A DNA stretch of 64,000 nt. Origin: Actinocorallia sp. API 0066 (GTDB lineage Bacteria; Actinomycetota; Actinomycetes; Streptosporangiales; Streptosporangiaceae). This document shows positions 10,577 through 30,722 of the stretch, piece after piece. How positions within the stretch are numbered: position 1 is the stretch's first letter; each line of letters begins with the position of its first letter. A program made the translations under genes and the position numbers. The notes under the pieces are model-generated. The model did no database searches. It worked only from the letters and a program-made list of their open reading frames with translations, and was not told the origin of the DNA. The stretch covers positions 124,001 through 188,000 of the forward strand of contig NZ_JAJLQY010000011.1 of the NCBI RefSeq assembly GCF_020991275.1, in the 5' to 3' direction.

Positions 10577-11370
10577 GCGGCGTCCATGGAGAAGTGGGAG
10601 ATGAGTCGTTCGAGGAAGTCGGGACCGGGCGAGGTGTGGAGATCGCCGTCCAGGTCGGCGACCAGGCGGTAGACCCGCCAGGGTCGGTAGACCCGGCGGT
10701 CGGAGGCGAAGGAGACCGGGTCGGAGCGGGACTCGGCGAACGGCACGTCGCCGCGTCCGCCGGACTGTCCCTCGGGCCAGAACGGGGCGGTGAACGGGAC
10801 GCCGCCGATGAACTCGACCGTCGTGCCGCCGAACGGTCTCCGCGCGAGCGGCAGCCGGAGCAGTTCGCGCGCGGGCTCAGGGCCGTCGGTCAGGGCCAGG
10901 AACAACGGCGCGTCCGGGGGGCATGAGCGTCTCCCCAGGAAGAGCGGCCATCGCGGACACCGCACGGCCTGACCGCACGCCGCGACGGTTTCCGGAGGCC
11001 CCTCGACGAGCACGGTGAAGGCCGCGTCCTGCCGGTAGTACCGCTCGGAGACGACGGTCGCGGTCTCGGCGCTACGCCGCTTCCCCTCCGCGGTGATGAC
11101 CGTCAGTTCACGCGGCATCCCGCCGCCGACCGTCTGGAAGTCCCGCAGGAAGGTTCCCGGACGGTCGACGCGGATCGTGAAGGTCAGCTCGCGGAGATCG
11201 TCCGTCCGCTGGTCGCGGGTGCGGCCCAGCGCGCAGGCGAGCAGGCCGATCAGCCCGGACCGGGTGGGGTATCGGGAACTGTCCCGCAGGTTGGCCGGGA
11301 CGTCCCCGGTGCCCCAGGACTGGAGGGGCCCGCTCAGGTGTAGGAGCAGCCCGGACGGCGTGCCGGTCAT
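10573..11370 (-). CDS. cas5e: Cascade subunit Cas5e (CasD)
   Basis: 265 residues. Cas5e caps the 5' handle of the crRNA in Cascade. The family signatures are clear: LLLHLSGPLQSWGTGD at the start, SSRYPTRSGLIGLLACALG, and TFLRDFQTVGGG. The middle carries KRRSAETATVVSERYYRQDA, and the C-terminal half holds the usual VYRPWRVYRLVADLDGD-like strand. Start and stop overlap the neighbouring cas genes by 4 bp on each side (ATGA), so it is translated as part of one mRNA. Confidence 0.95.
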   Translation of the reverse strand: MTGTPSGLLLHLSGPLQSWGTGDVPANLRDSSRYPTRSGLIGLLACALGRTRDQRTDDLRELTFTIRVDRPGTFLRDFQTVGGGMPRELTVITAEGKRRSAETATVVSERYYRQDAAFTVLVEGPPETVAACGQAVRCPRWPLFLGRRSCPPDAPLFLALTDGPEPARELLRLPLARRPFGGTTVEFIGGVPFTAPFWPEGQSGGRGDVPFAESRSDPVSFASDRRVYRPWRVYRLVADLDGDLHTSPGPDFLERLISHFSMDAA

Positions 11371-12545
11371 GCCGGGCTCTCCGGCAGTGCGGCCTCCAAC
11401 GCCCCGCCGATCAGGGCTTCGAACGAGTCGGCGGCGGTGCCGAGGGCCGAGACGTCGATCTTGGAGAAGGTCGCGTGGGCGGCGTGGACCAGTCCGTTCC
11501 CGCCGAGGAGACGTTCGGCGGCGGCGGCATAGGCGTTCAGGGCGGCGACGGACGGCTCGGCGTGCCCCCCGCCACGGTCGGGTGAGACGGGCTGCTCGAA
11601 CGCGGCGGAATACGACAACGGACGATCCTGACGGACTGTGATGTGCGCGAGGTGCGGGATCGTGTGGGGAGCCGTCGAACGTTTCTTGGCCTGCGGGAGC
11701 GAGAACAACGCGGCACGCAGGAGGGCGGAGGCCAGGGCACGGGTGTCGTACGGCTGCTCGCCGAGGTTGTGGTGCAGTTCCCGAACGTCGAGGACGACGT
11801 ACCGGTACAGAACTCCGGCCGAGTGTTCGGCGTGCCCCATGTGGGCGCTTCCGGTGGCGTCACGCCAGGTCTCGCTGACATCGTCCACTGCGCTGAAGTA
11901 GTCGATCTCGACGTTCGTCTCGTGAGTGGTGAAGGCGTGGGCGACCTGGACGGCTCCGTCGACCTTGGCGTCGTCCACCTGGGCGAGCATCCGGCCGAAC
12001 AGGCTGATGACACCGTTGCGGCTGCGCAGGATGTCGTCCACCTCCCTGGTCGGGACGGCGCTGTCCTTCGCCTGGGGCTTGGCGGGCAGTTCCTTGGCCG
12101 CCGCGATCTCGGCCTCGTATTTGACGGCGAGGTCGGCCAGCTCACCGATGGCGAGGTCAGGCACGTAGATCATCGCCGCGGTGCTCCACTCGCTCTTCTG
12201 CGCGGAATCGCCCTTGGACGGCTTCGGGACCTCGGCTCCGACGCTGCTCGCCACCGCGATGTGCCGCGCGGCCCTGACCGCCAGCTCCGGAGACCAGGAG
12301 TGGGCCTCCCTGAGCCGGCCGGCGACGCACTCGACCAGGCGGCGGGTGCGCAGGGCCGACTCGCCGAGTTCCTGCTGGAGGTGGAGGCGCATGGCGCGCT
12401 TCCAGCTCTGGCTGCTGACCCGGGTCCGGGTCCTGCCGCCCCACTCGACGGTCTTCACCGAGTTCGTGTCGTCGCGGTTGAGCGTGGAGAACGGGATGGG
12501 CTGGATGATGTGGAGTTCCACGAAGGAACCGTTGCTCGCGTTCAT
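11367..12545 (-). CDS. cas7e: Cascade backbone subunit Cas7e (CasC/Cse4)
   Basis: 392 residues. Six copies of Cas7e form the Cascade filament on the crRNA. Diagnostic segments: FVELHIIQPIPFSTLNRDDTN at the N-terminus (family opening, RNA-binding palm), GGRTRTRVSSQSWKRAMR, the insert FGRMLAQVDDAKVDGAVQ, ETNVEIDYFSAVDD and GVLYRYVVLDV. Start ATG at 12545; the stop overlaps cas5e. It is slightly longer than the E. coli protein (363 aa), as is usual for actinobacterial versions. Confidence 0.96.
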   Translation of the reverse strand: MNASNGSFVELHIIQPIPFSTLNRDDTNSVKTVEWGGRTRTRVSSQSWKRAMRLHLQQELGESALRTRRLVECVAGRLREAHSWSPELAVRAARHIAVASSVGAEVPKPSKGDSAQKSEWSTAAMIYVPDLAIGELADLAVKYEAEIAAAKELPAKPQAKDSAVPTREVDDILRSRNGVISLFGRMLAQVDDAKVDGAVQVAHAFTTHETNVEIDYFSAVDDVSETWRDATGSAHMGHAEHSAGVLYRYVVLDVRELHHNLGEQPYDTRALASALLRAALFSLPQAKKRSTAPHTIPHLAHITVRQDRPLSYSAAFEQPVSPDRGGGHAEPSVAALNAYAAAAERLLGGNGLVHAAHATFSKIDVSALGTAADSFEALIGGALEAALPESPA

Positions 12546-12568
12546 GGGGGTCCTCGGAGTCGTTGTGC

Positions 12569-13153
12569 TCAGTCGTTCGGGTGGTCGATCTGGTCGGCGG
12601 TGCGCGCGGCCTCGCGCTCGGCCTTGAACCGGGTGCGGTAGTAGCCCTGGAGCCAGCGGCGCGCTGTTTCCTCACGGCCTTGGTCCCAGGTGCGCAGGTC
12701 GAGCAGGAGCTGCGGCCAGTCGACGGTTCCGGGGCGGGTGCTGATGTACAGGGCGGCCGGCGGAAGGTGGCGGTACAGGCCGCGCTCGTTCTGCCGGGTC
12801 AACAACGTGAGGCGGCTTTCGGCGGACGTCTCCCGGAGGTCTCCTCGGGCCACGGCCTCCGCCAGGCACACGCCGAAGTTCCGTGAGGCGCCTTTCGGCG
12901 GGAGTCCACGGGCCTGCGGGGGCAACGAAGCGATGATCGAGGCGATCGTGTAGTACGCCTGCTGGAACGCCGTCCGACGCTCGGGCACCAAGCCCGCGAT
13001 CACCCGGTGCATGCGGGGACTCTGGGCGAGTGGTCGGCCCAGGCCGCTGCGCAGAGCCGCCCGTCTGCCCGGGTCGTCGCAGGCGTCGTAGACCTTTTTC
13101 ACGAAGTCGTACGTCTCGTCGTAGCGGGTGGGGGGAGGTGATGTCTCGGTCAT
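12569..13153 (-). CDS. cse2: Cascade small subunit Cse2 (CasB)
   Basis: 194 residues from the ATG at 13153, chosen because CAGCAGGAT lies just upstream and because the longer frame to 13240 would overlap cse1. Cse2 dimers contact the displaced DNA strand in the R-loop. Features: all-helical, DPGRRAALRSGLGRPLAQSP near the N-terminus (family signature LRRG.....P), then FQQAYYTIASIIASLPPQ, ESRLTLLTRQNERGLYRHLP and RWLQGYYRTRFKAE. Gap of 28 bp from cse1 and 23 bp to cas7e. Confidence 0.93.
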   Translation of the reverse strand: MTETSPPPTRYDETYDFVKKVYDACDDPGRRAALRSGLGRPLAQSPRMHRVIAGLVPERRTAFQQAYYTIASIIASLPPQARGLPPKGASRNFGVCLAEAVARGDLRETSAESRLTLLTRQNERGLYRHLPPAALYISTRPGTVDWPQLLLDLRTWDQGREETARRWLQGYYRTRFKAEREAARTADQIDHPND

Positions 13154-13181
13154 CGCATCCTGCTGGGATCGGGTGGTGTGG

Positions 13182-14693
13182 TCATGGGGTGGCCGGTTTC
13201 TTTCGGCGGCCTCCGTGAAGTTCGAGGCGGGCCCGCTCAATGGCCCGCGCCGCCCGAGGACCCGTCACGTAGCCGGACGTCACGGTGTTGAAGGTGTCCT
13301 CGGCGATACGGAAGAAGGCGCTCCAGGGGGCGGCGAGGTCGTCTTCGGCCAGGCGTTTCCAGAAGAGATCCTCGGCGCGCGGCCAGTAGATCGCGGCCGC
13401 CTGCTCCTGCCAGGCGCACGGGCCGACCTTCTTGTCGAGCGCCCAGGCCCAGGCCGCCTTCACCGCGAACTCCAACCGCTGGCCGTACATCTCCCCGGCG
13501 GCCCGAAGATCGCCGAGTGCGCGGGCGGTGTTGGGGTCGTCCTCGCTGATCTGATGGATCGGGATCGGCGTGCGGGACGCGACGAACTGGACGTCCTTCG
13601 TCTTGCCGTCCTGCTCGAACCCCAGGGCCCGGATGTGAAAGATGCCGAGGTCATCTGTGTAATCGAAGACCTTGGGACGTTTTACCTCGGTCGCCACACG
13701 ATCCAGGACGAGGAGACCGTCGAGGTCCCGCCAGAGCGCACGACCACCGTCAGCCGGTCTGGCGTAGACGTTTCCCTGCTTGCTGGTTTGGTGGATCACA
13801 TAGGGGTCAGCGGTGTTCGGTGTCTTCTGCCTGCGGCCCCAGGTGATGCACGCGTCGACAACGTGATCGCCGGTGGCATCGGGAAAGAGGAGAAGGGCGT
13901 GCTGCCAGCCGCCCGTCCACCGGGAGCAGGGGCCTGTGGGGGCGGGGGCCGGAGACAGCGGGTCGTGGAGTTCATCCACTTCCCATGGGCAGAGATCATT
14001 CTCCCGGGAGACATGGGCTTCGGGCGGGACCAGGCCCGCGAGCAGGGTCTCCAGGAGCGTGCGGCCCTCCGGGTGGTAGGAAAGACTCGAACGCAGAGGC
14101 CCTGCTGAGACGTCGGCCTTGGACTCGCCACCATGGGAGCGGGTCGCGCACCGTCCTGACGGGCCGTAGTACAGCCACATCAAGATGTGCGAGAACGCTT
14201 CCGCCGAGTCCACCGGCACCGGTGAGTCGTCCCAGTGATGACCGAACCAGACCGGGTTGTTACCCGCAGGACGTCCGATGACGAGCTTGTTCACTCCCGC
14301 CCGTTTCGGACACTCCTCGGCAAGCCGGGGATCTTGAAGAAACGGGCGCTCGGAGAACAGGTCGAACATGCCGGGGAACCGGTCGAAGTACTCCCTGACC
14401 CGGTTCGCGTCGATCCCCTTCTCCAGGATCTCGGCACGCCGGTCATGCCACTCATCATCGTCCGATGCCTCATCGAGTCCAGTGACCCGCGCGATCAACG
14501 CATACAGCAGGCGCAGGAGCCCGGACAGCGCCGGTGGAGGACCGAAGAGCAACGCCTCGATCTCGTGCGCCCGAACGAGCAGGTCTTCGAGGCCGACCCT
14601 GTCGGCCCGGACGTTCGTCGGAGGCGTGGTCCCGTGAACCCAGCGGATGGCTGCCCATGGCCTGGTCCTCAAATCAAAGCTGGGTCTCGACAC
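13182..14693 (-). CDS. cas8e: Cascade large subunit Cse1 (Cas8e/CasA)
   Basis: 503 residues from a GTG at 14693. That start gives the canonical opening VSRPSFDLRTRPWAAIRW, and an AAGGGGGG lies about nine bases upstream; an ATG at 14765 would overlap cas3 by 92 bp. Cse1 recognises the PAM and recruits Cas3. Visible: AEILEKGIDANRVREYFDRF, FDLFSERPFLQDP (typical 'F.L....PFLQ' segment), NNPVWFGHHWDD, ILMWLYYGPSGRC, and the C-terminal four-helix bundle. The start overlaps the end of cas3 by 20 bp. Confidence 0.93.
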   Translation of the reverse strand: MSRPSFDLRTRPWAAIRWVHGTTPPTNVRADRVGLEDLLVRAHEIEALLFGPPPALSGLLRLLYALIARVTGLDEASDDDEWHDRRAEILEKGIDANRVREYFDRFPGMFDLFSERPFLQDPRLAEECPKRAGVNKLVIGRPAGNNPVWFGHHWDDSPVPVDSAEAFSHILMWLYYGPSGRCATRSHGGESKADVSAGPLRSSLSYHPEGRTLLETLLAGLVPPEAHVSRENDLCPWEVDELHDPLSPAPAPTGPCSRWTGGWQHALLLFPDATGDHVVDACITWGRRQKTPNTADPYVIHQTSKQGNVYARPADGGRALWRDLDGLLVLDRVATEVKRPKVFDYTDDLGIFHIRALGFEQDGKTKDVQFVASRTPIPIHQISEDDPNTARALGDLRAAGEMYGQRLEFAVKAAWAWALDKKVGPCAWQEQAAAIYWPRAEDLFWKRLAEDDLAAPWSAFFRIAEDTFNTVTSGYVTGPRAARAIERARLELHGGRRKKPATP

Positions 14694-17598
14694 CTGCCGT
14701 GACCCCCCTTCTTCGGTCGCGATAGGCTGACAACCCCTGGTCAGCCGGCTCCGGGTGACATTCATGGCTCTCGTTTGTCAGTCCCCGCGCGGGCGGGGGT
14801 GAGCCGACTCCGTCCTTGAAGACGAAAATTCCTACGTCTGGCCGGATGCGGACGGCTCCGGGCTGGAGGCGTCCGGTCCACTCGCCCGTGGGTGAGCGCC
14901 GCATCGGGAGCAGGGTCCACCCGGCGAGGACCGAGTTCTTCTCCCAGGCGGGAGGGAGCTTCATCAGCTCCGCGCCCGCTCCGGTCCAGCGCGCGGGGAC
15001 GGGGACCATGTGAAGGGCTATGGTGCGTGCCTGGTCTCGGCTGATCTTCTGTCCGCCGTTCAGGCCCGGGGCGGGGAGCTCGCCCGCTTCGTCCAGCGTC
15101 CAGCGGCCGGAGTCCTGTTCGTAGACGCACACGAGGCGAGCGGAATCGGCGTCCAGGCGAGTGGTGATCAGATCTTCGTCGACTCCGGCCATCGGGGTGG
15201 TCAGCACGCTCAGATTCCGGGCCGTTCTGGATGATGGGCCCGGGATCGCCACGAGTTCGCTGAGCTGCTGTTGGGCGGCGTCGGAGGCGAGGCGTTCGCC
15301 GTCCGCACGGGCGAGCCGGCGTTCCGCCTCCTTCAGAAGGTCGTGGGCCCGCGCGAAGTCAGCGGCGTAGACATCGTCCACGAGGGACTGCACGTCACTC
15401 GGGATGCCGATCGGGGAGTTCGACCGTTCGCGCAGCAGGATGCTCGTCCGCCGCAACAACGACTCCGCATAGACTTTGCCCCAGGCGTCCGGGACCTCGA
15501 AGGAGCCGTTGGCGTCCACGGGATCGAGGACGACCACACGGGGATCACGGCTGAGCCAGCGCGGCCTGAGCGCCTCGTGCGGGTCGCCGCCCGGGTTCTG
15601 ATGGCGGCGGCATCGTCCGGAGCGCTGAAGAAGGAACGCCAGCGGCGCGAGATCGCTGATGATCAGGTCGAAGTCGAGGTCGAGGGACTGTTCGACGATC
15701 TGGGTCGCGACGAGGACCGTCCTCGGGCGGGTGCCCGTCTTCCCGAAGTCCCGCTCACAGGAGTCGGTGACGGCGGCTCGGTCCTTCGCGCGGAACCGGG
15801 AGTGCAGGAGCCGCAGGCCGGGTGCCTCGCCTCCGGAGGCTTCGAGCTCAGAGAACCAGTCCGCGAGAGCGTCATAGGTCTCCTTCGCCTCAGCGACCGT
15901 CGTGCAGCAGACGAGGACACAACCCTCCGGTCCCTCGGTCAACGGACGGAGCAGTTCCTTGATGACCGAGATCCGGTGTTCGGGATGCGCGGTGTCACGC
16001 CCACGGCGCACGGCGCGGACGGGGAACTCGATGACGCGCTCCCGTTCGCTGGCCACCGCGACCGGCTCACTGACCTTTCCGTTCTCGGCGCTCACGAACA
16101 GCCAGCCCGGGTACACGGGAGAGAAGGCGTCGGACAGATCATGTCCGCATCCGCGTAGGTACGCCTCAACGAGCGAGCGGGCCGTCGTCCCGGTCAGGGT
16201 CGCCGAGAGGACGACGACGGGAGCGCCCAGTGCCCCCATCCATTCGAGGAACCGAAGTAGCAGCGCGTGCATCCAGGCGTCGAAGGAGTGCGCCTCGTCG
16301 ATCACGAGAACCTTGCCTGACAACGCCATGAGCCGCAGGACGTTGAACTTCACCGGCAGCACTGCGACGAGGGCCTGGTCGATCGTCAGCGTGCTCAGCG
16401 GGGCGAGGAGCGGACGTTTGCCCGTGTACAACCAGCCGGTCGCCTCGGGTCCGCTCACGACGCCGGGGGCATCAACGGCCGAAGCCGCCGCGTCGGCGGC
16501 CGCGTCGTGGGAGAGCCAGGCCATGCTGTGGGCCTTCGTCAGCGCGGGCGCACCGACAAACGCCGTGCGGAGGAAGGCGCGCACCCTCCTGTGCATGGCG
16601 TCGGTGGTCGCCATGGTCGGCAGGCAGAACCCGAGACCGGTCGCACGGCTGGACCGGGCCATGACCCCAGCCGCGTAGAGCGCGGCCTCGGTCTTGCCGT
16701 CCCCGGGAGGTGCGGTGACGAGCAGCATCCCGGGACCGTTGACGAGCGACGGCAGCCTCTCAACGAGGGAACGTTGAAGCGTGTTCGGCTCGAACCCGAA
16801 CAGGTCGGCGAACGGGAGGTCGCGGAACTCCGCCGTGCCGAGACCCGCTTCGGAGATGAGCCTGGGCGCGTCAGCGAGCGAACGTTCCCAATGCTCCCGG
16901 ACCTGCTCTTCGGTAGCGCTCCATCCCGGCCCGGGCAGACGCGGCTCGATGAAGGTCGTCTGGCTCACCAGCCAGTCCGCCACAACGATCACGCCGAGCG
17001 CGAGGACGACCAGAGCCGGCGGCAGATGCTCGTCAAGTCCTTCCTCGGCACCGGTCAGCCCCCGCAGCAACTCCGCGTGCCTGCGACGCTCGTCCTCCCA
17101 CTTTCCGGCGCCGACTCCCGTCCGTCCGCTCGGGTTCGCCCATTCCCGCCGCGAAACAGCGGCGCAGAACCTTCCGTGGTGGCCCCCGAGCATCTGCGCG
17201 ACCTGATGTCCCACGTCTTTCCTGGCGCTGTCGCCCGCCGCGTAACCGAGTTCCCGCAGAATCTGGACGAGCCCCCAGTGCGTCACCTCCTGGTGGCCGA
17301 GCGACGGCACCGCCCGGTCCTCCCCGTACTCAGGCGACGCGTCGACCAGTTTCTTGTAGAGCTCCGGAACCTTCACCTGAAAAGAAGGGGATATTTTGCC
17401 AACATCATGCAGTCCAGCCCAGAACGAGACATAACTACGCCATTTGGCCAAACTGCCATCTTTGTCTACTACATCCCAAAGCTTCCCGGCCGTGGCAGCA
17501 GCGTCCATGAGGTGGCAGACAACGGGATACTCCGAGGTCAGACCCTTGTGCTTACCCCACAGTCGAGCATCCACCCCGCCCCTCTCACCGAGACCCAT
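14674..17598 (-). CDS. cas3: CRISPR-associated helicase-nuclease Cas3 (HD + DExH)
   Basis: 974 residues from the ATG at 17598 (GGGAG five bases upstream; an ATG at 17610 has poorer spacing). Cas3 is recruited by Cascade to nick, unwind and degrade target DNA. Domain order: an HD nuclease with a His in VVCHLMDAA, the HD pair in GLHDVGKISPSFQ (about residue 64) and GGHHGRF; then a superfamily 2 helicase with Walker A PPGDGKTEAALY (about 298), DEAH in VIDEAHSFD (about 433), motif III SATLTG, VATQIVEQSLDLDFD, and QRSGRCRRH (motif VI). It is the first gene of the leftward cas operon. All key residues appear intact. Confidence 0.97.
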   Translation of the reverse strand: MGLGERGGVDARLWGKHKGLTSEYPVVCHLMDAAATAGKLWDVVDKDGSLAKWRSYVSFWAGLHDVGKISPSFQVKVPELYKKLVDASPEYGEDRAVPSLGHQEVTHWGLVQILRELGYAAGDSARKDVGHQVAQMLGGHHGRFCAAVSRREWANPSGRTGVGAGKWEDERRRHAELLRGLTGAEEGLDEHLPPALVVLALGVIVVADWLVSQTTFIEPRLPGPGWSATEEQVREHWERSLADAPRLISEAGLGTAEFRDLPFADLFGFEPNTLQRSLVERLPSLVNGPGMLLVTAPPGDGKTEAALYAAGVMARSSRATGLGFCLPTMATTDAMHRRVRAFLRTAFVGAPALTKAHSMAWLSHDAAADAAASAVDAPGVVSGPEATGWLYTGKRPLLAPLSTLTIDQALVAVLPVKFNVLRLMALSGKVLVIDEAHSFDAWMHALLLRFLEWMGALGAPVVVLSATLTGTTARSLVEAYLRGCGHDLSDAFSPVYPGWLFVSAENGKVSEPVAVASERERVIEFPVRAVRRGRDTAHPEHRISVIKELLRPLTEGPEGCVLVCCTTVAEAKETYDALADWFSELEASGGEAPGLRLLHSRFRAKDRAAVTDSCERDFGKTGTRPRTVLVATQIVEQSLDLDFDLIISDLAPLAFLLQRSGRCRRHQNPGGDPHEALRPRWLSRDPRVVVLDPVDANGSFEVPDAWGKVYAESLLRRTSILLRERSNSPIGIPSDVQSLVDDVYAADFARAHDLLKEAERRLARADGERLASDAAQQQLSELVAIPGPSSRTARNLSVLTTPMAGVDEDLITTRLDADSARLVCVYEQDSGRWTLDEAGELPAPGLNGGQKISRDQARTIALHMVPVPARWTGAGAELMKLPPAWEKNSVLAGWTLLPMRRSPTGEWTGRLQPGAVRIRPDVGIFVFKDGVGSPPPARGLTNESHECHPEPADQGLSAYRDRRRGVTAGVETQL

Positions 17599-18037
17599 GC
17601 ACGCTCCCATCTCCCGTCCGCGTCAACTTCACGCCACTGAAGCACACAGCTCCGACAAAACGAGATGACGACATCAAGCCATGCGGCCGCCCAACCCGCA
17701 TGACACCCCAAATACCGCCCGGTCATCTTGAACGCACCGCGAGCGGATCGCCCACCCGCCCCCGCCGGAGGGGATCAAGAAGGTGGCGGGTAGGCGAGTC
17801 TGAGGCGTTTAAGGGCGTGTTCGAGGCTGACCGACATGACGTAGGGGCCCTGAGCGCGGTTCGTGCGTCGAGGTGGGTGATGCGGCTCCTACCGTCGCCA
17901 TCCGTGACACCAAGAACCGGACCGGCCCGACCCTCGGCTTCACTCGACGCCAGTTCGGTGCCCTGGTTGGACAGATCAAGGGCGGCGAACTGGGTTCCTG
18001 AGGAGCCCACACCGCCACTCAGACGTCGTCTCCACCT
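17599..18037. other. Gap upstream of cas3: promoter region and gene debris
   Basis: This 439-bp stretch must hold the promoter of the leftward cas operon (17599-17720), though no clear -35/-10 pair stands out. It also carries a DUF397 fragment (annotated separately). On the reverse strand a short coding-like tail (MSVSLEHALKRLRLAYPPPS, ending at about 17775) looks like the last residues of some larger protein, which I could not identify. Confidence 0.4.
17839..18001 (+). pseudogene. DUF397 protein fragment (5'-truncated)
   Basis: After an in-frame stop the frame reads GPERGSCVEVGDAAPTVAIR, DTKNRTGPTLGFTRRQFGAL and ends VGQIKGGELGS. This is the second half of a DUF397 protein: SCVEV, then the VAIRDTK strand, then a helix ending in the last residues of the family. 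The usual N-terminal WRKSS(Y/F)SG is missing. DUF397 proteins are small actinobacterial proteins normally paired with an XRE regulator; no such regulator is adjacent here, so this is probably a left-over of a lost pair. Confidence 0.55.
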
Positions 18038-20787: not shown

Positions 20788-22857
20788 ATGACAGAGTTCA
20801 TCCCCGGGGTCGGTGCTGGGTCCTTGCTACGGTCGGAGCTGCTCGCCGATGGGAGGTCGACCCGCGTCGGTGCAATCCATCAGATCGACTACGGTCAGGC
20901 GGTCGTTCTGACCCACGATCGCTGGAAGTTCGATGCCGGGGGTATCCCGCAGTTCTCGTTCTTGCTGGCCACCGCACAGGACGTAGACGACCCTCGGCTG
21001 GACGATGATGAGGTGCTGCTACTACGTGTCGAGGGGACAGCGCCACTGGCGCTTGAGCGTGACCTACACGCCGTGCGTGAAGAGTCGCTGCGTACAGCCC
21101 TTTCGAACAACCAAGACCCATCACCATCTGTCGTACTTGATGCGGAGCTTGACCCATTCACCAAGAACAGGGTGTCATTTACCGGCGTTCGATGCAAGAT
21201 TCTCGGCACATTCTATGAGGATGACGTCGACGGGGAGAAGGTGCTGGAATTCGGCGCTGACGTGGATAACTTCTACGCCACGTCAACTTATCGAGTCCTG
21301 AAGCCTATCGGTGGTGGTCTAGCAACGATCGCTTCCTACCTCAAGCCGACCGGGCGCCCGGTCGAACGCGTGCGCATCGGAGCGGTTCGATACTCAGCTA
21401 CGAGACGGCGCGCCAAGACCTCCAAGCAAGCAGACGCTTCCGTTGAAGTCAATATCCGCGACTTCATCGGCAATAAGACCGCCCTGCTCGGAATGACCCG
21501 GATGGGTAAGTCTAATACCGCAAAGATCATCATTGCGCGCACATTCGTCGTATCCGAGCAGCAGCGCGCCGCGGGCGGAAGCGCCATAGGTCAATTGATA
21601 TTTGACCCCCAGGGCGAATATGCAAATCCAAACACGCAAGACGGAACTGAGATTGCGGCGATTGGTGCTAGTCACGTTAGCATTTTCAAGTTCGGCGCCG
21701 ACGGATCGCAGGCGCATGTGAAGCCGCTTAATATCAACTTCTTTTCTGAACAGCAGATTGACGCTGTTCAGAGCTTGATCTCCGATACGCTAAGCAGCGA
21801 CGAAGCTGGCTACGTCAAAGACTTCGCGGGTACATCCTACGCAGACGTCCCAGGCGATCGTTCAGCGACCACGCAGGCACAGCGCGCTCGAATGGTGCTT
21901 TATGGCGCATTGATGCGCGCCGGATTCGCAGTGCCGACAGGATTCCGTGCGTTCATCAACATAAGCAGTGCGTTCCAGCGGAAGATAGAGAACGGCATCA
22001 CTGGGGCGACCGCAGTAGCCGGACTTGGCCGCAATCCGTTTACTCAGGCCGGAAATAGTGCGAACTATGTCACCGTCGCGGCCGAGGACATCGGGGTCGT
22101 CGTTGACACGATCGTGAAGATGTCCGAAGCGAGAGACAGCGACGCGACAAATTTTACAAAGGACGTCCGCTGGAAGAGCGTCGAGCCGATCTTTACGACG
22201 ATTAGTGGACGGCGCAACGTCCGAGGTTGGCGAAATCTGAACCCGCTGCGCCCGTTTCATAGCCCTCTAACGAGGAACGATCCTGCGATCGAGATCTATG
22301 AGGAGTTGCTCCAAGGACGCATCGTCATCGTCGACCTGCATGTCGGCGCGGAGGCAGTGACCAAAGCACTGAGTGAGTCGATCACGCGTCGGCTGCTGTC
22401 GAGGCAAACGGAGGTTTTTACGTCAGGGCAAGAGCCTCCGCATATTCAGGTGATGCTTGAAGAAGCGCATAATTTGTTTTCGTCCGATAGGTACAAGAAC
22501 GACTCCGATGTATGGATTAAGCTCGCGAAAGAGGCCAGCAAGCTCAACCTTGGCATGACGTATGCGACTCAGGAGGTCTCTGGAGTAGCGCATCAGGTAA
22601 AGGCGAACACTGCCAACTGGGTTGTCGCGCATCTAAATAATACGACCGAAGTGCGTGAATTGGCCAAATTCTATGACTTCGGATCTTTCTCGGACGCCAT
22701 CATCGCTTCCGAGGACCGAGGGTATGTGCGCCTCAAGACCCTTTCATCGCCGTACATCGTTCCTGTCCAGGTTGACCGATACGACATCGCCCTCGTGAAT
22801 GAGGCGCGAGCCGCGGCTGGCGATGGGCCGTTGATGCTGAACGGTATGGTGCCCTGA
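20788..22857 (+). CDS. herA: HerA-family DNA translocase ATPase
   Basis: 689 residues from the ATG at 20788 (GAGAGGG six bases upstream; a GTG at 20767 is weaker). HerA proteins form hexameric rings that pump DNA and work with the NurA nuclease. Visible: an N-terminal HAS-barrel-like region (GAIHQIDYGQAVVL), Walker A GMTRMGKSNTAK (about residue 238), FDPQGEYANP, and Walker B IQVMLEEAHNLF (about 557), then TYATQEVSGV (sensor-like). Low-GC codons are frequent (AAATTTTAC, CATAATTTG), unlike the flanking genes, so it was acquired separately. Its TGA overlaps the ATG of the next gene, a NurA-type nuclease, which fixes the partnership. Confidence 0.9.
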   Translation: MTEFIPGVGAGSLLRSELLADGRSTRVGAIHQIDYGQAVVLTHDRWKFDAGGIPQFSFLLATAQDVDDPRLDDDEVLLLRVEGTAPLALERDLHAVREESLRTALSNNQDPSPSVVLDAELDPFTKNRVSFTGVRCKILGTFYEDDVDGEKVLEFGADVDNFYATSTYRVLKPIGGGLATIASYLKPTGRPVERVRIGAVRYSATRRRAKTSKQADASVEVNIRDFIGNKTALLGMTRMGKSNTAKIIIARTFVVSEQQRAAGGSAIGQLIFDPQGEYANPNTQDGTEIAAIGASHVSIFKFGADGSQAHVKPLNINFFSEQQIDAVQSLISDTLSSDEAGYVKDFAGTSYADVPGDRSATTQAQRARMVLYGALMRAGFAVPTGFRAFINISSAFQRKIENGITGATAVAGLGRNPFTQAGNSANYVTVAAEDIGVVVDTIVKMSEARDSDATNFTKDVRWKSVEPIFTTISGRRNVRGWRNLNPLRPFHSPLTRNDPAIEIYEELLQGRIVIVDLHVGAEAVTKALSESITRRLLSRQTEVFTSGQEPPHIQVMLEEAHNLFSSDRYKNDSDVWIKLAKEASKLNLGMTYATQEVSGVAHQVKANTANWVVAHLNNTTEVRELAKFYDFGSFSDAIIASEDRGYVRLKTLSSPYIVPVQVDRYDIALVNEARAAAGDGPLMLNGMVP

Positions 22858-24257
22858 TGCCGTACGAGACCATCGGGGGTGCGTACGAGCTCGCTTCACG
22901 GCTGGGTCATTCAGCCGCAGCCATCAAGGCCATAGCCGACCAACGGACCTTCTATGTTCCGGCAGAGCCGCTTCAGGACGTGGAAATGATCCGTGAGCGG
23001 ATTAGGCCGCGGACAGACTTCGCCGTTCCGCCTGCGGCAGATCGGCTTAGCGCAGCGTTGGCGATCGATGGTTCACACGTGGTCGAACAGGTGCGAGACG
23101 GGCTGCCTTCGGTCATGTACGGATTCGCCCAGGCTGCTGCCGCCTATGTAGACCTCGATGTTCTTGAATCACAGCGAGCAGAGAGGTTCGTCGACCCGTA
23201 CGCGATCGAACGTGCGATCAACACCGCTCTCGTGACGCTCGATCTGCCAGTCGCTGGTGCGTACACGCGTCCTGGCGTCGACATCGTGACCTCGTGGCGA
23301 GAGTCAATAGACCTCCTGTTCCGCCAGAAGAAGATCGATGTCAACCGCTTGGATCAGCCGTTGCTTGACCTGCTCTTCCTTCTCCACGGTGGTCCCGGTC
23401 TGCCAGCAGTTACTGTGCCAGTCAATTGCCCGAGCACGGATTGTAGTAAGGACGTGCCCGTCCCGCCGGCAGGCGCCGATTGCTCCGTGTGCGGCGAGCA
23501 CCTCTTTCCTACTGACGTGCTTCGTATCCATGAAGAGGTCGGCGAAGAGGGTGCGAATCAGTCTGCTCTCGGACGCCTGATGTCTGTGATTGAGCTGCTG
23601 GTCCTGGTCGGGTTGTCCACGCTGCTGTGGGAGCAGTCACGCCAGAGAGCCCTGCGTACAACGCTGTTCATCGTCGATGGCCCCCTCGCAGTGTTCGGAA
23701 CGCCGGCGAAGCTACGAGGACGAGCGCTCGACTACTTCCAGGCTATGGGCAGTACCACTCCTGCGGTCGCCCCGTATGTTTGTGGGATTGAGAAGTCTGG
23801 GGTATTGGTCGACTATGCGCGCCAGCTAGCGCGTCACGACCTTCTTAGCCCTGGCGACCTTTTGGTATGTGATGAGCAAATCATCTCTCGTGTTGTCAAC
23901 GCCAACAACGCTCGCGCCTACGGCAAGGAAACCTACTGGGGTCGTAAATTCGTGTACCGTGCGCTCGATGGACGGGTCGTCGTTCCAACGGTTCCACCAC
24001 CGACTGGCGCGCCATACGATGCTAACGGCGGCAAAGCGGACCCTCGCGACTATCCAACACTATCGGCAATTCTCGATGTAATCGATCGCACAGGCTCATC
24101 GATGTACGTCGATGGCATCATCCCGGTCGCGGCCGCACATGGCAGGGCAGCGTTTCCGATCGGAGTTGGCACCGACGTGCTTCGCCTGGTGGCTACCAAG
24201 CGGCTAGGCCTCGACTCTCCTGGACAGCAACCGAATCAGGTACGGTCTACCCCATGA
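22857..24257 (+). CDS. nurA: NurA-domain nuclease with zinc-finger insert
   Basis: 466 residues, starting on the ATG that overlaps the herA stop. The NurA fold is indicated by a first acidic strand LAIDGSHVVEQV (metal-binding Asp), a second TTLFIVDGPLAVFG, then VCGIEKSGVLVDYA and GKETYWGRKFVYR near the end. NurA is a 5'-3' exonuclease and endonuclease acting with HerA. About residues 190-215 hold four cysteines (CPSTDC and CSVC) that can bind zinc, an insert I do not know from archaeal NurA. The TGA overlaps the ATG of the methyltransferase gene (ATGA), so the three are one translational unit. Confidence 0.8.
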   Translation: MPYETIGGAYELASRLGHSAAAIKAIADQRTFYVPAEPLQDVEMIRERIRPRTDFAVPPAADRLSAALAIDGSHVVEQVRDGLPSVMYGFAQAAAAYVDLDVLESQRAERFVDPYAIERAINTALVTLDLPVAGAYTRPGVDIVTSWRESIDLLFRQKKIDVNRLDQPLLDLLFLLHGGPGLPAVTVPVNCPSTDCSKDVPVPPAGADCSVCGEHLFPTDVLRIHEEVGEEGANQSALGRLMSVIELLVLVGLSTLLWEQSRQRALRTTLFIVDGPLAVFGTPAKLRGRALDYFQAMGSTTPAVAPYVCGIEKSGVLVDYARQLARHDLLSPGDLLVCDEQIISRVVNANNARAYGKETYWGRKFVYRALDGRVVVPTVPPPTGAPYDANGGKADPRDYPTLSAILDVIDRTGSSMYVDGIIPVAAAHGRAAFPIGVGTDVLRLVATKRLGLDSPGQQPNQVRSTP

Positions 24258-25459
24258 TACAAAGTGCTGAGGTGGCGACGGCTGGTCCTGCGCGTGCCAT
24301 CCATGAGACTACGCCTACCATCCCGACACATATTCATGAGAACGCCAGGCAACTCGTCTCTCCACTCGGTGCAATCGAGCATCCCCTTGCATCCGGCAGA
24401 TTTCAGTCGCCGCTTAGGTATCCAGGGGCGAAGTCCTCTCTCGCCCCAGTAATTGCCCGAATCTTGGATTCCGCGAAGAAATCGCGTGCTGTCCCAGAGA
24501 TCAACCTACTCGTTGAGCCGTTCGCTGGCGGGGCATCAGCTTCTTTGCGCCTCGTCGGCCAAGGGATTGTTGATCGGGTATTGCTCGCCGATGTTGATCC
24601 GCTCGTGACTGCTTTTTGGCAAGTCGCGGCTGCCGACACAGAAGTTTTTATTGACCGAATGCATGATGAGTGGGCCAGATACGTGAGACCAGGCGGTGCG
24701 ACTGGTGTTGAGCGATGGGACTATTGGCGCTCCTGGACGCCTGCTCGGAACGCGAAACCCTCCACGGTTCGACTTGGCTTGGCGATGCAATGCCTATTTC
24801 TTAATCGGACTACATTCTCGGGCATCCTGCACGGGAAGGCTGGACCGATTGGTGGACGTCAGCAGAAGAGTCCATACGGGATTGGATGCCGGTGGAACCC
24901 AGAATCAATTGATGGGCGACTCCGATATGTTGGCCATCTGTATAGGACCGGTCGGATAGTTGATGTATGGCATAAGGACTGGAAGCAAACCCTTGTTGAT
25001 GTGCCCGAGTACTATCCGCAGTTGATTCCGTCTCGCGTCGTTGCCTACCTTGACCCTCCGTACCTAGAGAAGGCGTCCCATCTATACCGCACTTCTTTCG
25101 ATCCGAGCGGCGGCTATGGCGGTGATGGTCTAGGCAAGTCGAGGCCAAACGACTACATGCTTCATATGCAGCTATCCACTTATCTGCGTACCAAAGCCCA
25201 ATTTCGCTGGCTTCTCAGCTACGATAATAACCCGCTACTGACAAGTGATCCGTGGCTGTATGCGCATTCTCGCATGACACCAAGCACCGAAGACCGTGAA
25301 ATGCTCGGTGTAAGCTCCTGGACGCTTAGCAAGCGCCTGGTGAAGACGCGCTACACAGCTAGCGGCAAGACAGGTAAGCGCGATGCAGATGAGCTCCTCA
25401 TTACAACGCTTCCACCTTCTACGGTCCCGACAGATAGCCAGCTACGTGTCCTGACCTAG
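24254..25459 (+). CDS. DNA adenine methyltransferase, D12/Dam class
   Basis: 401 residues. It methylates adenine N6 in DNA. Motifs: PLRYPGAKSSLAPVI (the D12 opening, cofactor binding), LLVEPFAGGASASLRL (motif I), the target-recognition middle (CLFLNRTTFSGILHGKAG), and VAYLDPPYLEKASHLY with the catalytic DPPY. It is longer at the N-terminus by about 50 residues than typical Dam. Being coupled to herA and nurA, it most likely marks self DNA while HerA-NurA attacks unmarked DNA; that role is inference. No conventional restriction endonuclease gene is found nearby. Confidence 0.88.
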   Translation: MIQSAEVATAGPARAIHETTPTIPTHIHENARQLVSPLGAIEHPLASGRFQSPLRYPGAKSSLAPVIARILDSAKKSRAVPEINLLVEPFAGGASASLRLVGQGIVDRVLLADVDPLVTAFWQVAAADTEVFIDRMHDEWARYVRPGGATGVERWDYWRSWTPARNAKPSTVRLGLAMQCLFLNRTTFSGILHGKAGPIGGRQQKSPYGIGCRWNPESIDGRLRYVGHLYRTGRIVDVWHKDWKQTLVDVPEYYPQLIPSRVVAYLDPPYLEKASHLYRTSFDPSGGYGGDGLGKSRPNDYMLHMQLSTYLRTKAQFRWLLSYDNNPLLTSDPWLYAHSRMTPSTEDREMLGVSSWTLSKRLVKTRYTASGKTGKRDADELLITTLPPSTVPTDSQLRVLT

Positions 25460-25502
25460 TGGCTCGTCTGCCAACGTTGCTGGGGGTTTGATCTAGGCGG
25501 GT

Positions 25503-26545
25503 GTGCTCGGCAGCCTTGTCTCAGGCTCGTTCTGGGAGGGGGTCGTGGGGCGTAGACCCGAGGTGTTCGTGCGGGCGTTGTCGATGGAGGAGGGCCGCCG
25601 GTTGCAGTGGATCACCAGGACGGCGAAGGACCCGGTGAAACTGCGGCGGGCGATCGTCGTGCTGATGTCCGCTCAAGGCCAGCGGGCCTCCGCCATCAAG
25701 TCGTTGATGCAGGTCAGTGACGACTACGTCCGGTCAGTGGTGCATGCATTCAATGAGCGGGGGTTCGACGCGTTGGACCCAAAATGGAGCGGGGGTCGGC
25801 CGAGGAGGATCGGTGAGTGGGTGCGTGAGCGCATCTGCCTGATCGCCCGGACGACCCCCGCCGAATGGGGAATCACCGGCTTTTGACCTGGAGCCTGGCC
25901 AAGCTCGCCGCCCACGTGGAGAACGTCGGCCTCGTCACCTCGCTGAGCCGCACGCATCTGGCCCGGATCCTGAAGGCCGGCGGGGTGTCGTGGCAGACCA
26001 CCACGACGTGGAAGAGCTCGAACGATCCGGACTTCATCGCCAAGATGCACGCCGTTCTGGCCCTCTACGACGCCCCGCCGCAGGGCGGGCGGGTGATCTG
26101 CGTGGACGAGTTCGGGCCCCTCAATCTGATGCCCCGCAAGGGCAAAACCTGGCGGCCGAGGGCGCATCGGGCCCGGGTGCGCGCCACGTTCAACCGCAAC
26201 GACGGCGTCCGGCACATGCTCGGCGCCCTCGACCTGGCGACCGGCCGCCTCCACTACCGGATCCGGCACCGCAAACGGTGGCAGGAGTTCCTGTCCTTCC
26301 TCAAGAGCCTGCGCGCACGATGGCCCGGCCAGCGCCTGCACGCCATCTGCGATAACTACTCGCCGCACAAACACCCCCACGTCAGGGCGTGGGCCGCTGA
26401 CAACGACGTCGACCTGGTGTTCCTGCCGACCTACGGCTCCTGGCTGAACTGGATCGAATCCGAGTTCGCCGCCCTGCGCCACTTCGCACTCAACGGCACC
26501 GACCACCACAGCCACACCGAGCAGAACACCACGATCGTTCCCTGA
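25503..26545 (+). pseudogene. IS630-family transposase, frameshifted and 3'-truncated
   Basis: Two overlapping frames make one transposase. The first (25503-25886) has the helix-turn-helix part MEEGRRLQWITRTAKDPVKL ... GRPRRIGEWVRERI and ends ITGF-stop. The second (from about 25880) continues LLTWSLAKLAAHV, then the DDE domain with VICVDEFGPLNL, ICDNYSPHKHPHV and LNWIESEFAALRHFAL. The junction CTTTTGA could be a programmed -1 slip, as in many IS630 elements, or decay. The protein ends early at EQNTTIVP, lacking the usual 50-60 residue end (RYIRWRN...). It separates the methyltransferase from the ParB-like gene. Terminal inverted repeats were not found by eye. Confidence 0.75.
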
Positions 26546-26725
26546 AAGCAGAGTCGGGACAGCTCGGACCAGGTCCCAGGCGAGCCCGTCGCTCAGGCGC
26601 GACAGCTGGTCTCCAGGGCAGCCCAAACAACATCACGGAAGATCGAGCCTAATCCAGTCGCAGGTTTGAGCTTCTCACGTTACTGTTATTCGGCAACAGG
26701 GTGGTGCTGACCTCAGGAGGACCTC

Positions 26726-28255
26726 ATGGCGGATCGGCCGTTGCATGAGAGGCCACGGGAAATTGCTGTGTCAAAGCTCCTTCTTGACCAGAGTAATCCC
26801 CGCCTGGGCGCCGTTCAGCCGAACCAGAGGTCGACCGAGATCGAATTGGCGAAGCTGCTTGACAACCAGCTCTTTGAGCTAGCCAATGACGTTGTGAAAT
26901 TCGGTATGGATCCGAGTGTTCTACTGATTGCAGTTCCCGCTGAGGGATCGCCGGGAAAGTATCGAATTCTCGAAGGTAATCGCCGTCTTCTGACGGTCAA
27001 GGCCCTTACGAAGCCGAAGATTCTCGCTGAGGCGTTGGCGCCAGCCCGCTATAAGCGACTCGTAAACCTTTCAGAGCGATTCCATGTAGACCCTATTCGA
27101 CGGCTGCGCTGTATCGTGTTTGAACTGGAAGAAGACGCCGACCACTGGATCGAGCTGCGTCACACCGGCGAAAATGGTGGCGCCGGCCTCGTTGGCTGGG
27201 ACTCCAATGAAAAGGCTCGATGGAAGAGCCGGCGTGGGGGCCTGGCCAAGCGCACGCCTGCTGGTCAGGTGATCGACTTTGTCGATCACTTTTGCCCGCC
27301 GAATAGCGGTGATGCCAGAAGAATATTCTCAACCGTTCAGCGAATCGTATCGTCGGTGCATGTGCGAAAGCACTTGGGAATCCACACGAAGTCCGGCGTT
27401 GTGTACTCATATTTCCCTGCCACGGAAGTGCTCAAGAGCCTTTCGAAAGTGGTCATAGACCTGCGTACCGGGGTCATTAAGGTCACCGACGTTTATCATG
27501 CTACTCAGCGTGATTCCTATATCAACGGGTTCGGTCGGGACGATCTTCCGAATCCTGAAACTAGGCTCGATGAACCGGTGATCCTCGTCGATCTGATTGT
27601 TACTTCAGCTCCTTCCTCGGATTATAGAGCGGAGGAGGAAGGTCACGCGAGTGACGAGCACGGTGTTCCCATCCCTCGAAGCGAAGCTGCTCCAGAGGCG
27701 GCCGATCCTGCTGATGCGGGCGCTGCATCCGTCGCTACAATGTCAGCAGATGCTACTCCGGGGGTAACGCTTGCTCCGCCCACTGGTGCATCGAGAAGTA
27801 GGGTGAAGGTCAGGGGTGATAGGACGACGCTCATCCCCGCTGCGTGTGCTCTGTGGATTCCGCAGGCTCGAATTAACGCGATCTATAACGAGCTTTGCAG
27901 AATCAGCGTGGACAACTTTAGTAATGCGTGCGGCGTGAGTCTCAGGGTCTTTGTTGAGCTGACTGTCGACCATCACATATCCCTCAATGGCATCATGTCG
28001 GAGAGTGAGCGTAACAGCTCACCTTTGGCGAAGAGGATGAAGAAGCTCGCGGAGTTCTTGCGAGCGGCTGGACATATTGATATGCAGTTGGAGAGGGCAA
28101 TTATTAAAATCGCCGATGGTGTCGGGATGTTCAGCGCCTCGACGACCACGTTCAATCAGTACGTCCATAACGGCTACGTCTTCCCGCATCCGAGCGAGCT
28201 CAGGCTTGCCTGGGATGAGCTCGAACCATTCATGTTGGCGTTGTGGAAGAAGTAG
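26726..28255 (+). CDS. ParB/sulfiredoxin-like domain protein
   Basis: 509 residues; AGGAGG five bases before the ATG. The N-terminal domain is ParB/Srx-like: EIAVSKLLLDQSNPRL (first strand), FGMDPSVLLIAV and the box YRILEGNRRLLTVKAL, which corresponds to the ParB GxRR motif. The middle contains GRDDLPNPETRL, then a disordered Ala/Pro/Glu linker (about residues 300-365), then a helical C-terminal domain (IPQARINAIYNELCRISVDN, RVFVELTVDHHIS). ParB-like proteins with this layout occur in defence loci as DNA-binding or nuclease/NTPase factors. It is on the same strand as the herA operon but behind the IS630 remnant, so it may be a fourth member. Confidence 0.75.
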   Translation: MADRPLHERPREIAVSKLLLDQSNPRLGAVQPNQRSTEIELAKLLDNQLFELANDVVKFGMDPSVLLIAVPAEGSPGKYRILEGNRRLLTVKALTKPKILAEALAPARYKRLVNLSERFHVDPIRRLRCIVFELEEDADHWIELRHTGENGGAGLVGWDSNEKARWKSRRGGLAKRTPAGQVIDFVDHFCPPNSGDARRIFSTVQRIVSSVHVRKHLGIHTKSGVVYSYFPATEVLKSLSKVVIDLRTGVIKVTDVYHATQRDSYINGFGRDDLPNPETRLDEPVILVDLIVTSAPSSDYRAEEEGHASDEHGVPIPRSEAAPEAADPADAGAASVATMSADATPGVTLAPPTGASRSRVKVRGDRTTLIPAACALWIPQARINAIYNELCRISVDNFSNACGVSLRVFVELTVDHHISLNGIMSESERNSSPLAKRMKKLAEFLRAAGHIDMQLERAIIKIADGVGMFSASTTTFNQYVHNGYVFPHPSELRLAWDELEPFMLALWKK

Positions 28256-28755: not shown

Positions 28756-29433
28756 GTGCGTTGGCGGAACAGGATAGCCGATCGGCTTCTCGCGGGCGTG
28801 CTCGCCAAAGAGCTGCATGATCGGAGCAAGTTGAACGACGACCTGGAATCGGAGCCCAGCCGTGATCCGTACCTGCTCGCGCAGGTACGTGAAGCGTTTG
28901 GGAGAGTCGTTTACAGCCACAAGACACATGAGAAGCAGGCTGACATCTGCTTTGGGAAGCATCGATGGCAGCAGAGAGTCCTCATCGCCCTCACGGCGAT
29001 TAGCTCTGGCACCTTCTTGGCAGCAGTGATCGGCTTGCTCGGCCGCGGTGTACCGACCAACCTCGTGACCTCGTTCATTGCGCTCCTGGTGAGCTGGATG
29101 AGCCTCGGTGCGAGGACTTTCAAGTTCGAGGAGGAGTCCGAGGCTCACCGCGGTATAGCTTCTCAGCTGTGGGATGTCAGGGAGTCCTACATCTCTCTCA
29201 TCGCCGACCTGATGTCCGGCGCCATGTCAGATGCCGATGGTCGAGAGCGCCGCGACGAGCTCCAGCAGGCCACGCTCGACGCTTACGCCGGAGCACCCCG
29301 AACAAGTCGGAAAGCATACGAGCGGGCCAGCGAGGGACTACAGCGCGACGAAGAGATGACGTTCACCTCCCGTGAGATCGATCTCTTCCTCCCCGAGACG
29401 CTCAGGCCCGGCGCCGGCGAGGGCCGATCATGA
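28756..29433 (+). CDS. SLATT-domain membrane protein, probable CBASS effector
   Basis: 225 residues from a GTG. A helical N-terminus (KELHDRSKLNDDLESE) is followed by SHKTHEKQADICFGKHRWQQ, two transmembrane segments (VLIALTAISSGTFLAAVIGLL and VTSFIALLVSWMSLGA) and a helical C-terminus with AHRGIASQLWDVRESYISLI. This is the SLATT layout: two membrane helices plus a conserved C-terminal helix, predicted to form pores when a nucleotide signal is sensed. The stop overlaps the ATG of the CD-NTase gene (ATGA), the usual arrangement for a two-gene CBASS with membrane effector. Confidence 0.85.
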   Translation: MRWRNRIADRLLAGVLAKELHDRSKLNDDLESEPSRDPYLLAQVREAFGRVVYSHKTHEKQADICFGKHRWQQRVLIALTAISSGTFLAAVIGLLGRGVPTNLVTSFIALLVSWMSLGARTFKFEEESEAHRGIASQLWDVRESYISLIADLMSGAMSDADGRERRDELQQATLDAYAGAPRTSRKAYERASEGLQRDEEMTFTSREIDLFLPETLRPGAGEGRS

Positions 29434-30722
29434 AGACCTCGGAGATCTTTGACGCTTTGCTCGACAGTCTTAAGGTCGGCGACGCCGCAGCAGCGGTCGC
29501 CACCCGCAGGGACGAGATCGCCAAGGCGCTGAACAAGGACTTTCGCTCAAAGGTCGGCTGCACCGACTACAGGCTCATGGTGGGCTCATTCGGTCGCCAC
29601 ACCGCTATCAAGGGCGTGTCCGACCTAGATATGATCTTCGTCCTGCCTCCCGGGATCCGCTCCGCATACAGCAGTGAGACGGGTCCGCGACGGGTGCTCG
29701 AGCGCGTCCGGGACGCCCTCAAATCCCGGTATCCGCACACCGACATTCGCATTGACCAGTGCGTCGTGCGGGTGCAATTCACCAGCAACGCCTTCAAGTT
29801 CGAGATCCAGCCAGCGTTCGAGAACAGCGACGGCAGCTTCGACTACCCCGACACGGTAGCCAAGGGTTGGAAGGTAACCAAACCGCGCAAAGAGATCAAA
29901 GCGACCAAGGAGTGCAACGACCGCACCTCGACGAACATGCGTCACTTGGCGCGAATGGTACGGGCGTGGAAGAACTCGAACGGAGTGAACATCGGCGGCC
30001 TCCTCATCGATACGCTGGTATACCGGTTCTTCGCGCAGACCGATGAGTATGACTCGGCTGGGACCGGTTCGTTCGGCTCCTTGGCCCGTGACTTCTTCGA
30101 GTTTCTCAAGGACGAGCCCAACAAGGACTATTATCTCGCCCTGGGCAGCAGCCAACGTGTGACGGTGAAGGCGCGCTTCCAGCCGAAAGCCAAGAAGGCG
30201 TATAGCCGGTGCTTCGAGGCGATTGCGGATGAGGGCACGGCCGCCGCGAATAAGAAGTGGCGCGAAGTCTTCGGGACGCCTGTTCCGCTGGCCGTCACCG
30301 AAGCGTCCAAGGCGTTCACGAACACCGAGCAGTTCATTGAGGACCGGTATCCAGTCGACATCATGGAGTCGGTCACCATCGACTGCGAGGTGACGCAGAA
30401 CGGTTGGAGACCGACCCAGCTGCGCGAGATGCTGTGCACCGGGGCACCGCTCAGGTCAGATAGGAAGCTGAAGTTCATCGTCACCGAGTGCAGCGTTCCA
30501 CAGCCTTACGAACTGAAGTGGAAGGTGCTCAACCGCGGTCCAGAGGCTGAGCGCCGGAACATGATCCGCGGCCAGATCGTCGACTCGAACAAGCCGAACG
30601 CCCGGGCGGAACACTCCGATTTCAGAGGCGAGCACGTCGTGGAGTGTTACGTCGTCAAGGATGGTGTAGTCGTCGCCCGGGATCGCATCGACGTGCCGAT
30701 CAGCGGTACTAGCGGCACATAG
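29430..30722 (+). CDS. CD-NTase (SMODS) with C-terminal AGS-C sensor domain
   Basis: 430 residues. The nucleotidyltransferase core is GSFGRHTAIKGVSDLDMIFV (the GS motif and the metal-binding DxD), followed by FEIQPAFENSDGSFDYPD with the third acidic/strand element. The C-terminal domain (SVPQPYELKWKVLNRGPEAE, RRNMIRGQIVD, HVVECYVVKDGVVVARD) matches the adenylyl/guanylyl-and-SMODS C-terminal sensor (AGS-C). Such enzymes make cyclic oligonucleotides on phage infection; the fused AGS-C domain and the SLATT partner suggest a short CBASS in which sensing may be in the synthase. The exact nucleotide cannot be told. No ubiquitin-like or HORMA accessory genes are present. Confidence 0.88.
   Translation: MKTSEIFDALLDSLKVGDAAAAVATRRDEIAKALNKDFRSKVGCTDYRLMVGSFGRHTAIKGVSDLDMIFVLPPGIRSAYSSETGPRRVLERVRDALKSRYPHTDIRIDQCVVRVQFTSNAFKFEIQPAFENSDGSFDYPDTVAKGWKVTKPRKEIKATKECNDRTSTNMRHLARMVRAWKNSNGVNIGGLLIDTLVYRFFAQTDEYDSAGTGSFGSLARDFFEFLKDEPNKDYYLALGSSQRVTVKARFQPKAKKAYSRCFEAIADEGTAAANKKWREVFGTPVPLAVTEASKAFTNTEQFIEDRYPVDIMESVTIDCEVTQNGWRPTQLREMLCTGAPLRSDRKLKFIVTECSVPQPYELKWKVLNRGPEAERRNMIRGQIVDSNKPNARAEHSDFRGEHVVECYVVKDGVVVARDRIDVPISGTSGT

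Follow-up and report, generated by a model that had tools for sequence, protein, structure and literature searches.

The present analysis concerns a cassette of three genes, coding for a HerA-type motor, a NurA-like nuclease and a DNA adenine methylase, in a 64,000-nucleotide stretch of Actinocorallia sp. API 0066 (contig NZ_JAJLQY010000011.1, positions 124,001 to 188,000 of the forward strand; this whole stretch is referred to as the window, and its numbering is used for all coordinates given without a locus name). The herA gene (20788..22857) was read from the ATG codon following GAGAGGGCGAGA, the mechanically called open reading frame beginning at 20767, and codes for 689 amino acids (aa). 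It is followed by the nurA-like nuclease gene (22857..24257, 466 aa) and by the gene of a D12-class N6-adenine DNA methylase, the modification arm (24254..25459, 401 aa). All three frames are intact and lie on the + strand; herA and nurA are joined by TGATG with one base shared, nurA and the methylase gene by ATGA with four bases shared, and joins of one base and of four bases were also found in many relatives of the cassette. The GC content of the cassette stretch is 0.58-0.62 as against about 0.70 in the surroundings, and the GC content at third codon positions (GC3) of its genes is 0.55-0.65. An earlier reading made from the letters of the window (the sequence-only reading) had claimed overlaps of 1-4 bp between the three genes and a low-GC, foreign composition, and both claims were confirmed.

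The product of herA is predicted to be a hexameric-type HerA/FtsK DNA-pumping ATPase. It matched Pfam DUF87 at 2.3e-10, and in a comparison of a profile of eight relatives with the PDB the nearest solved structure was TdpA (8wet_A, E 6.4e-32), well ahead of the next solved HerA at 2.8e-15. The Walker A motif GMTRMGKS at residue 235 and the motif EEAHNLF at residue 558 are intact. With the anti-phage HerA models of NCBIfam the protein scored far under the curated cut-offs.

For the NurA-like protein nothing above cut-off was obtained in Pfam or NCBIfam, and no PADLOC match at E values up to 1. Its structure was therefore considered on an AlphaFold2 model of modest quality (predicted local distance difference test, pLDDT, 64), which was compared with the PDB by Foldseek and VIA-align. 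The top Foldseek match was TdpB (E 5.5e-9), followed by the NurA proteins of Deinococcus, Sulfolobus, Thermococcus and Pyrococcus, and the VIA-align Z score was 19.4 over 289 residues for TdpB, 13.3 for Sulfolobus NurA and 10-13 for most NurA structures, with unrelated RNase H folds at about 9.4 and below. On this modelled structure the NurA fold assigned by the sequence-only reading is present, and by the fold match a false NurA call could be ruled out; low E-values against zinc-finger chains stem solely from the Cys4 insert. Among 70 aligned sequences D71 is conserved in 69, and E246, D274 and K313 are conserved in every one. The first motif would correspond to D49 of Thermococcus (Tko) NurA, a residue essential for cutting in a HerA-NurA pair that acts as an exonuclease on both strands of duplex DNA (PMC12977600). 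The Cys4 insert (residues 191-212, 23427..23492 on the + strand), a putative zinc ribbon that may have a role in the nuclease, had likewise been noticed before, and its cysteines C191, C196, C209 and C212 are invariant (70/70), so that it can be regarded as a stable trait in this branch of NurA. The insert falls outside the sequence match to TdpB, which, judged from this unaligned stretch, would be devoid of it.

The cassette methylase matched Pfam MethyltransfD12 at 2.9e-12, and its motifs FAGG at residue 90 and DPPY at residue 267 are intact; the best PADLOC match was PD-Lambda-5_B at 3.9e-47.

Whether the three genes belong together was assessed by scanning 84,980 species genomes with a NurA profile, which gave 74 loci; since the scan used a motif of this NurA branch, the counts describe the branch and not all NurA. 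HerA stands directly upstream of NurA at 65 of the 74 loci, three of these being cut by a contig end, and at 58 of the 62 loci in other genomes that remain after exclusion of the cut ones a DNA methylase on the same strand adjoins the pair. The partner methylases come from at least three families, namely two D12 types and PF01555. A D12 enzyme of the window kind (D12a) is present at 29 loci, all of them in Actinomycetota and with the methylase downstream of NurA (27 loci) or upstream of HerA (two loci); the second type (D12b) is the partner at two loci, and PF01555 methylases precede HerA at 27 loci in Bacillota, Chloroflexota, Campylobacterota, Actinomycetota, archaea and others. The four exceptions are three loci of Nostocales and the Helicobacter locus L098, in which an upstream frame with the motifs EPSCGN and NPPF looks like yet another methylase. 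Versions of the cassette were also found on a halophilic archaeal plasmid and on two IMG/VR contigs; in the viral contigs a scan with the NurA alignment was needed to find the latter two, no match being obtained with a single NurA protein or with a single protein of the ParB-like kind described below. The co-occurrence check proposed with the sequence-only reading has thus been carried out, and herA, nurA and a methylase gene form a recurring cassette across bacteria and some archaea.

The relation between the three genes was examined within the D12 clade by distance correlations, for which all rows of the clade were used except four that were near-duplicate, broken or long-branched. HerA and NurA distances were correlated with r 0.987, HerA and methylase distances with r 0.47. 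Between group A, to which the window belongs, and group B the identities are 0.79 for HerA, 0.76 for NurA and 0.52 for the methylase, and between group A and group E they are 0.36, 0.32 and 0.65, respectively. Correspondingly, A groups with B in the trees of HerA and NurA and joins the greater part of E in the methylase tree, and over almost the whole gene length the group A methylase is nearer to that of E. Approximately unbiased (AU) tests rejected A+B on the methylase data (p 2.6e-8) and A+E on the HerA and NurA data (p 6e-45), these p values being descriptive because the groups were picked after the identities had been seen. HerA and NurA thus evolve as one unit, and within the clade of the window methylase genes have been transferred as a whole from one HerA-NurA backbone to another, distant one. 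Streptomyces cyaneofuscatus (L062) and Micromonospora humi (L042) are examples of relatives in which the methylase has been exchanged. The correlations, identities and trees are most simply explained by a single HerA-NurA machine to which a methylase is added as a replaceable module, its action being exerted by way of the DNA.

These data also bear on the idea that the methylase serves as recognition subunit in a HerA-NurA machine, comparable to BREX or type I systems, and not a marker alone. The constant 1:1 operon linkage would fit such an arrangement, and an exchange of the methylase would then swap the specificity. But methylases that are 65% identical stand on HerA backbones about 36% identical, and unrelated methylase families serve kindred pairs, both of which argue against a fixed protein interface and make a subunit role quite improbable. 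The self mark would rather be interchangeable, in that kindred HerA-NurA pairs carry different methylase families, and self-recognition most likely takes place through a mark on the DNA and not in a tightly co-evolved complex of methylase and motor.

The distribution of the cassette was patchy. NurA was found in 3 of 59 close relatives, one of two congeners carrying a NurA of 34% identity and the other carrying none, and in 8 of 395 other genomes of the phylum; the cassette is accordingly an accessory element. This spread, with absence from most genomes of the family, together with the low GC content and the location in an island, speaks against an archaeal-type end-resection or repair pair that stands beside an epigenetic methylase by chance. 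The archaeal and Deinococcus HerA-NurA pairs have been studied in end resection (PMC9960219) and consist of the identical two folds; the window NurA is nearer to TdpB than to the NurA of repair, and chance neighbourhood agrees poorly with a methylase at 58 of 62 loci, so that we regard a repair function as very improbable.

The surroundings were assessed on the 110 genes lying nearest to the cassettes of the relatives, with 110 genes from ten other stretches of five genomes as controls. Among the matches listed at E values up to 1e-15, covering the first 25 families for either set, the flanking genes included AbiEii (3) and type IV restriction (2), as well as type I/III restriction, Cas3e, a CBASS cyclase and several candidate families of PADLOC; in the control genes only two proteins were among the matches listed, to PD-T4-6 and other kinase families, and these two look like ordinary protein kinases. 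The contrast favours a defence function, and the defence context suggested by the sequence-only reading was borne out in foreign composition and in defence-rich surroundings.

Taken together, the cassette is probably a complete three-gene defence system of restriction-modification type, a proposal that draws on the gene content and its recurrence, the modelled fold, the kinship to TdpA and TdpB, the exchange of methylases, the patchy distribution and the defence-rich surroundings. A TdpA-like HerA hexamer and a TdpB-like NurA dimer would act together as a single motor-nuclease, drawing in duplex DNA and breaking down its two strands. Host DNA would carry N6-methyladenine placed by the D12 methylase and would be spared, and DNA lacking the methyl mark of the cassette, for example that of phages or plasmids, would be degraded. 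This division into a self-marking methylase and a degrading HerA-NurA pair had been put forward before and finds support by analogy in the nearest relatives. TdpAB of the Thermus system TdpABC reportedly degrades DNA that is free of phosphorothioate, the self mark said to be made by TdpC, and sulfur in DNA is said to hinder the loading or translocation of TdpAB. Our favoured guess is that the methyl mark would likewise hinder loading, translocation or cutting. The closest solved relatives of the window HerA and NurA are TdpA and TdpB (8WET, 8WFD, 8Y1K), and in both systems the pair is coupled to a DNA-modification gene; the window pair differs in that it adjoins a D12 adenine methylase, with no TdpC in the three-gene operon, to which the search was confined, and in that its NurA has the invariant Cys4 insert where the stretch of TdpB is unaligned in the sequence match.

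Three points weigh against a restriction-modification function. First, a HerA/FtsK-NurA-methylase operon of the Thermus element ICETh1 serves DNA donation, with the methylase of little weight (PMC5365140, PMC7767461). Second, the known HerA-NurA pairs are end-dependent, and control by scattered methyl sites leaves a mechanistic gap. Third, at three loci of Nostocales (L076, L081, L093) and on a plasmid (L113) HerA-NurA is present with no adjoining methylase. The first of these points is the basis of the strongest rival explanation, a DNA-donation machine in which the pump and NurA would process and export host DNA from cell to cell and the methylase would be accessory. The ICETh1 operon of Thermus thermophilus HB27 contains the type IIG enzyme Tth111II, a NurA-like nuclease, TdtA (HerA/FtsK) and a PF01555 methylase; TdtA and the nuclease are needed for donation (PMC5365140), and loss of the methylase had a minor effect (PMC7767461). 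Judged by operon composition, the window thus shares the HerA/FtsK, NurA and methylase trio with ICETh1, but the methylase family and the gene order differ, and a type IIG enzyme is absent from the window cassette and was not recognised beside the pair in relatives. Furthermore, the 25 Pfam families most frequent in the flanks include none of conjugation, the flanks are rich in defence genes, and the near-universal methylase linkage and the methylase exchange would be unexplained if the methylase were dispensable. A donation function is for these reasons considered unlikely.

In comparison with further known systems, the SIR2-HerA and DUF4297-HerA systems also combine a HerA motor with an effector partner, but in the window the motor is paired with a protein of NurA fold and accompanied by a methylase; among the window genes scanned with Pfam, none matched SIR2 or DUF4297. 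The HerA-NurA pairs of archaea and Deinococcus are more distant from the window pair than TdpAB and were studied as repair-type pairs, and no methylase was noted with them in the literature consulted on these pairs. With regard to type II restriction-modification, in which a methylase has a cognate site-specific endonuclease, the cassette contains a methylase, and its nuclease is a motor-coupled NurA of RNase H fold that may or may not cut at specific sites. The parts have been described before, TdpABC provides one precedent for HerA-NurA coupled to a modification gene, and the trio is known from one mobile element with another function. The sequence-only reading knew of no described system with this combination of parts, which holds insofar as no methylase-linked HerA-NurA was found as a restriction-modification class in PADLOC 2.0, with whose models the cassette was compared, or in the searchable literature (outside subscription journals and preprints), and it has to be modified in view of TdpABC and the tdtA operon of ICETh1. 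The cassette is widespread and apparently unnamed.

Downstream of the cassette lies an IS630-type transposase gene (25503..26545, + strand), which consists of the overlapping frames 25503-25886 and 25865-26545 with matches to HTH_32/HTH_29 and DDE_3 and has a GC3 of 0.92. Terminal inverted repeats of this insertion sequence (IS) were searched for and none were found; the element is probably a remnant and outside the cassette. Behind it on the same strand, as the sequence-only reading had stated, a gene for a ParB-like protein of 509 aa follows (26726..28255, +). The protein matched the PADLOC model PDLC04008 (PD-Lambda-5_A) at 7.7e-182 over the whole profile, and its N-terminal fold is of the ParB/Noc/SbnI/Srx type by a weak match. 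PD-Lambda-5 was found experimentally as a defence system of Escherichia coli prophages and described as compacted restriction-modification plus abortive infection; it has two genes, with B directly behind A, and no HerA or NurA (PMC9519451). The B component, like the cassette methylase to which it is related, belongs to the D12 class.

Membership of the ParB-like gene in the cassette as a fourth gene, which had been considered earlier, was rejected: PD-Lambda-5_A is present at none of 76 HerA-NurA loci, the eight carriers of NurA and the eight carriers of PD-Lambda-5_A among the 395 other genomes of the phylum do not overlap, and in four other genomes (L028-L031) the A gene is directly followed by its own D12 methylase, PD-Lambda-5_B. 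A functional four-gene system, in which PD-Lambda-5_A would read or act on sites marked by the cassette methylase, draws on the observation that the protein is intact yet without its own methylase, the cassette methylase upstream being the only PD-Lambda-5_B-like protein found in the genome. A true PD-Lambda-5_B scores 1.9e-116 as against 3.9e-47 for the cassette enzyme, and the IS630-type element separates the cassette from PD-Lambda-5_A; with the missing co-occurrence, this leaves the four-gene proposal highly unlikely. PD-Lambda-5_A is an island neighbour and belongs to a separate known system. With its regular partner methylase absent from the genome, it may represent one stranded component of that system or may depend on the cassette methylase instead.

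Directly downstream of PD-Lambda-5_A, in the place of a B methylase, a CBASS operon (28756-30722) codes for a SLATT_4 effector with two transmembrane segments and then for the cyclase (SMODS + AGS_C, PDLC00796 at 3e-178). On the other side of the cassette, type I-E CRISPR-Cas genes for Cas1e, Cas5e, Cas7e, Cas11e, Cas8e and Cas3e are located at 8970-17610 on the - strand, and both defence loci described for this island by the sequence-only reading are thus present in the window.

Several related loci differ in their arrangement. In the temperate Vibrio phage PQ189371 (L114, 1309-5750) HerA-NurA stands beside an integrase with a convergent D12 methylase, which scores best with the PD-Lambda-5_B type, and for this reason the methylase class can be regarded as common to PD-Lambda-5 and HerA-NurA cassettes. 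At L032 (6449-8212) a frame of 587 aa whose C-terminal half contains a D12 methylase adjoins PD-Lambda-5_A-like matches and is possibly a fused PD-Lambda-5. At L076, L081, L093 and L113 (listed as Nostocales) a helix-turn-helix gene of 82 aa precedes HerA-NurA, and at L076 genes for a DncV-like cyclase and a SAVED protein lie downstream. Methylase, HerA and NurA are followed by homologues of PD-Lambda-1 and PDC-S48 in an actinobacterial metagenome-assembled genome (L015, 9766-12315). At L096 (5596-6978) a single frame runs from the terminal part of a PF01555-type methylase into the C-terminal part of NurA, HerA being gone, and is what a deletion has left of a cassette with methylase, HerA and NurA. 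The HerA-NurA copies of Methanosarcina (L101) and Helicobacter suis (L103) are broken, the former by an opposite-strand gene that interrupts HerA and the latter at several points.

HerA-NurA is best known from DNA repair. If the proposed function is correct, many HerA-NurA genes annotated as repair genes would become defence genes, including those of Helicobacter, Clostridia and archaea, and a processive HerA-NurA machine that pumps and degrades would replace the site-specific enzyme and work with unrelated marking enzymes. As a tentative extension, which we consider possible but doubtful, the cassettes may constitute a widespread class of restriction-modification in which a TdpAB-like effector senses whether DNA is modified or not and the mark is exchangeable, and in the window PD-Lambda-5_A may share the mark of the cassette; with a freely exchangeable mark (phosphorothioate in Thermus, D12 or PF01555 methylation elsewhere) the effector would sense modification and not one motif. 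Since nature offers similar backbones with two different methylases, the cassette would provide a route to asking how a motor senses modified DNA, and if PD-Lambda-5_A relies on the cassette methylase, two effectors would be guarded by one mark.

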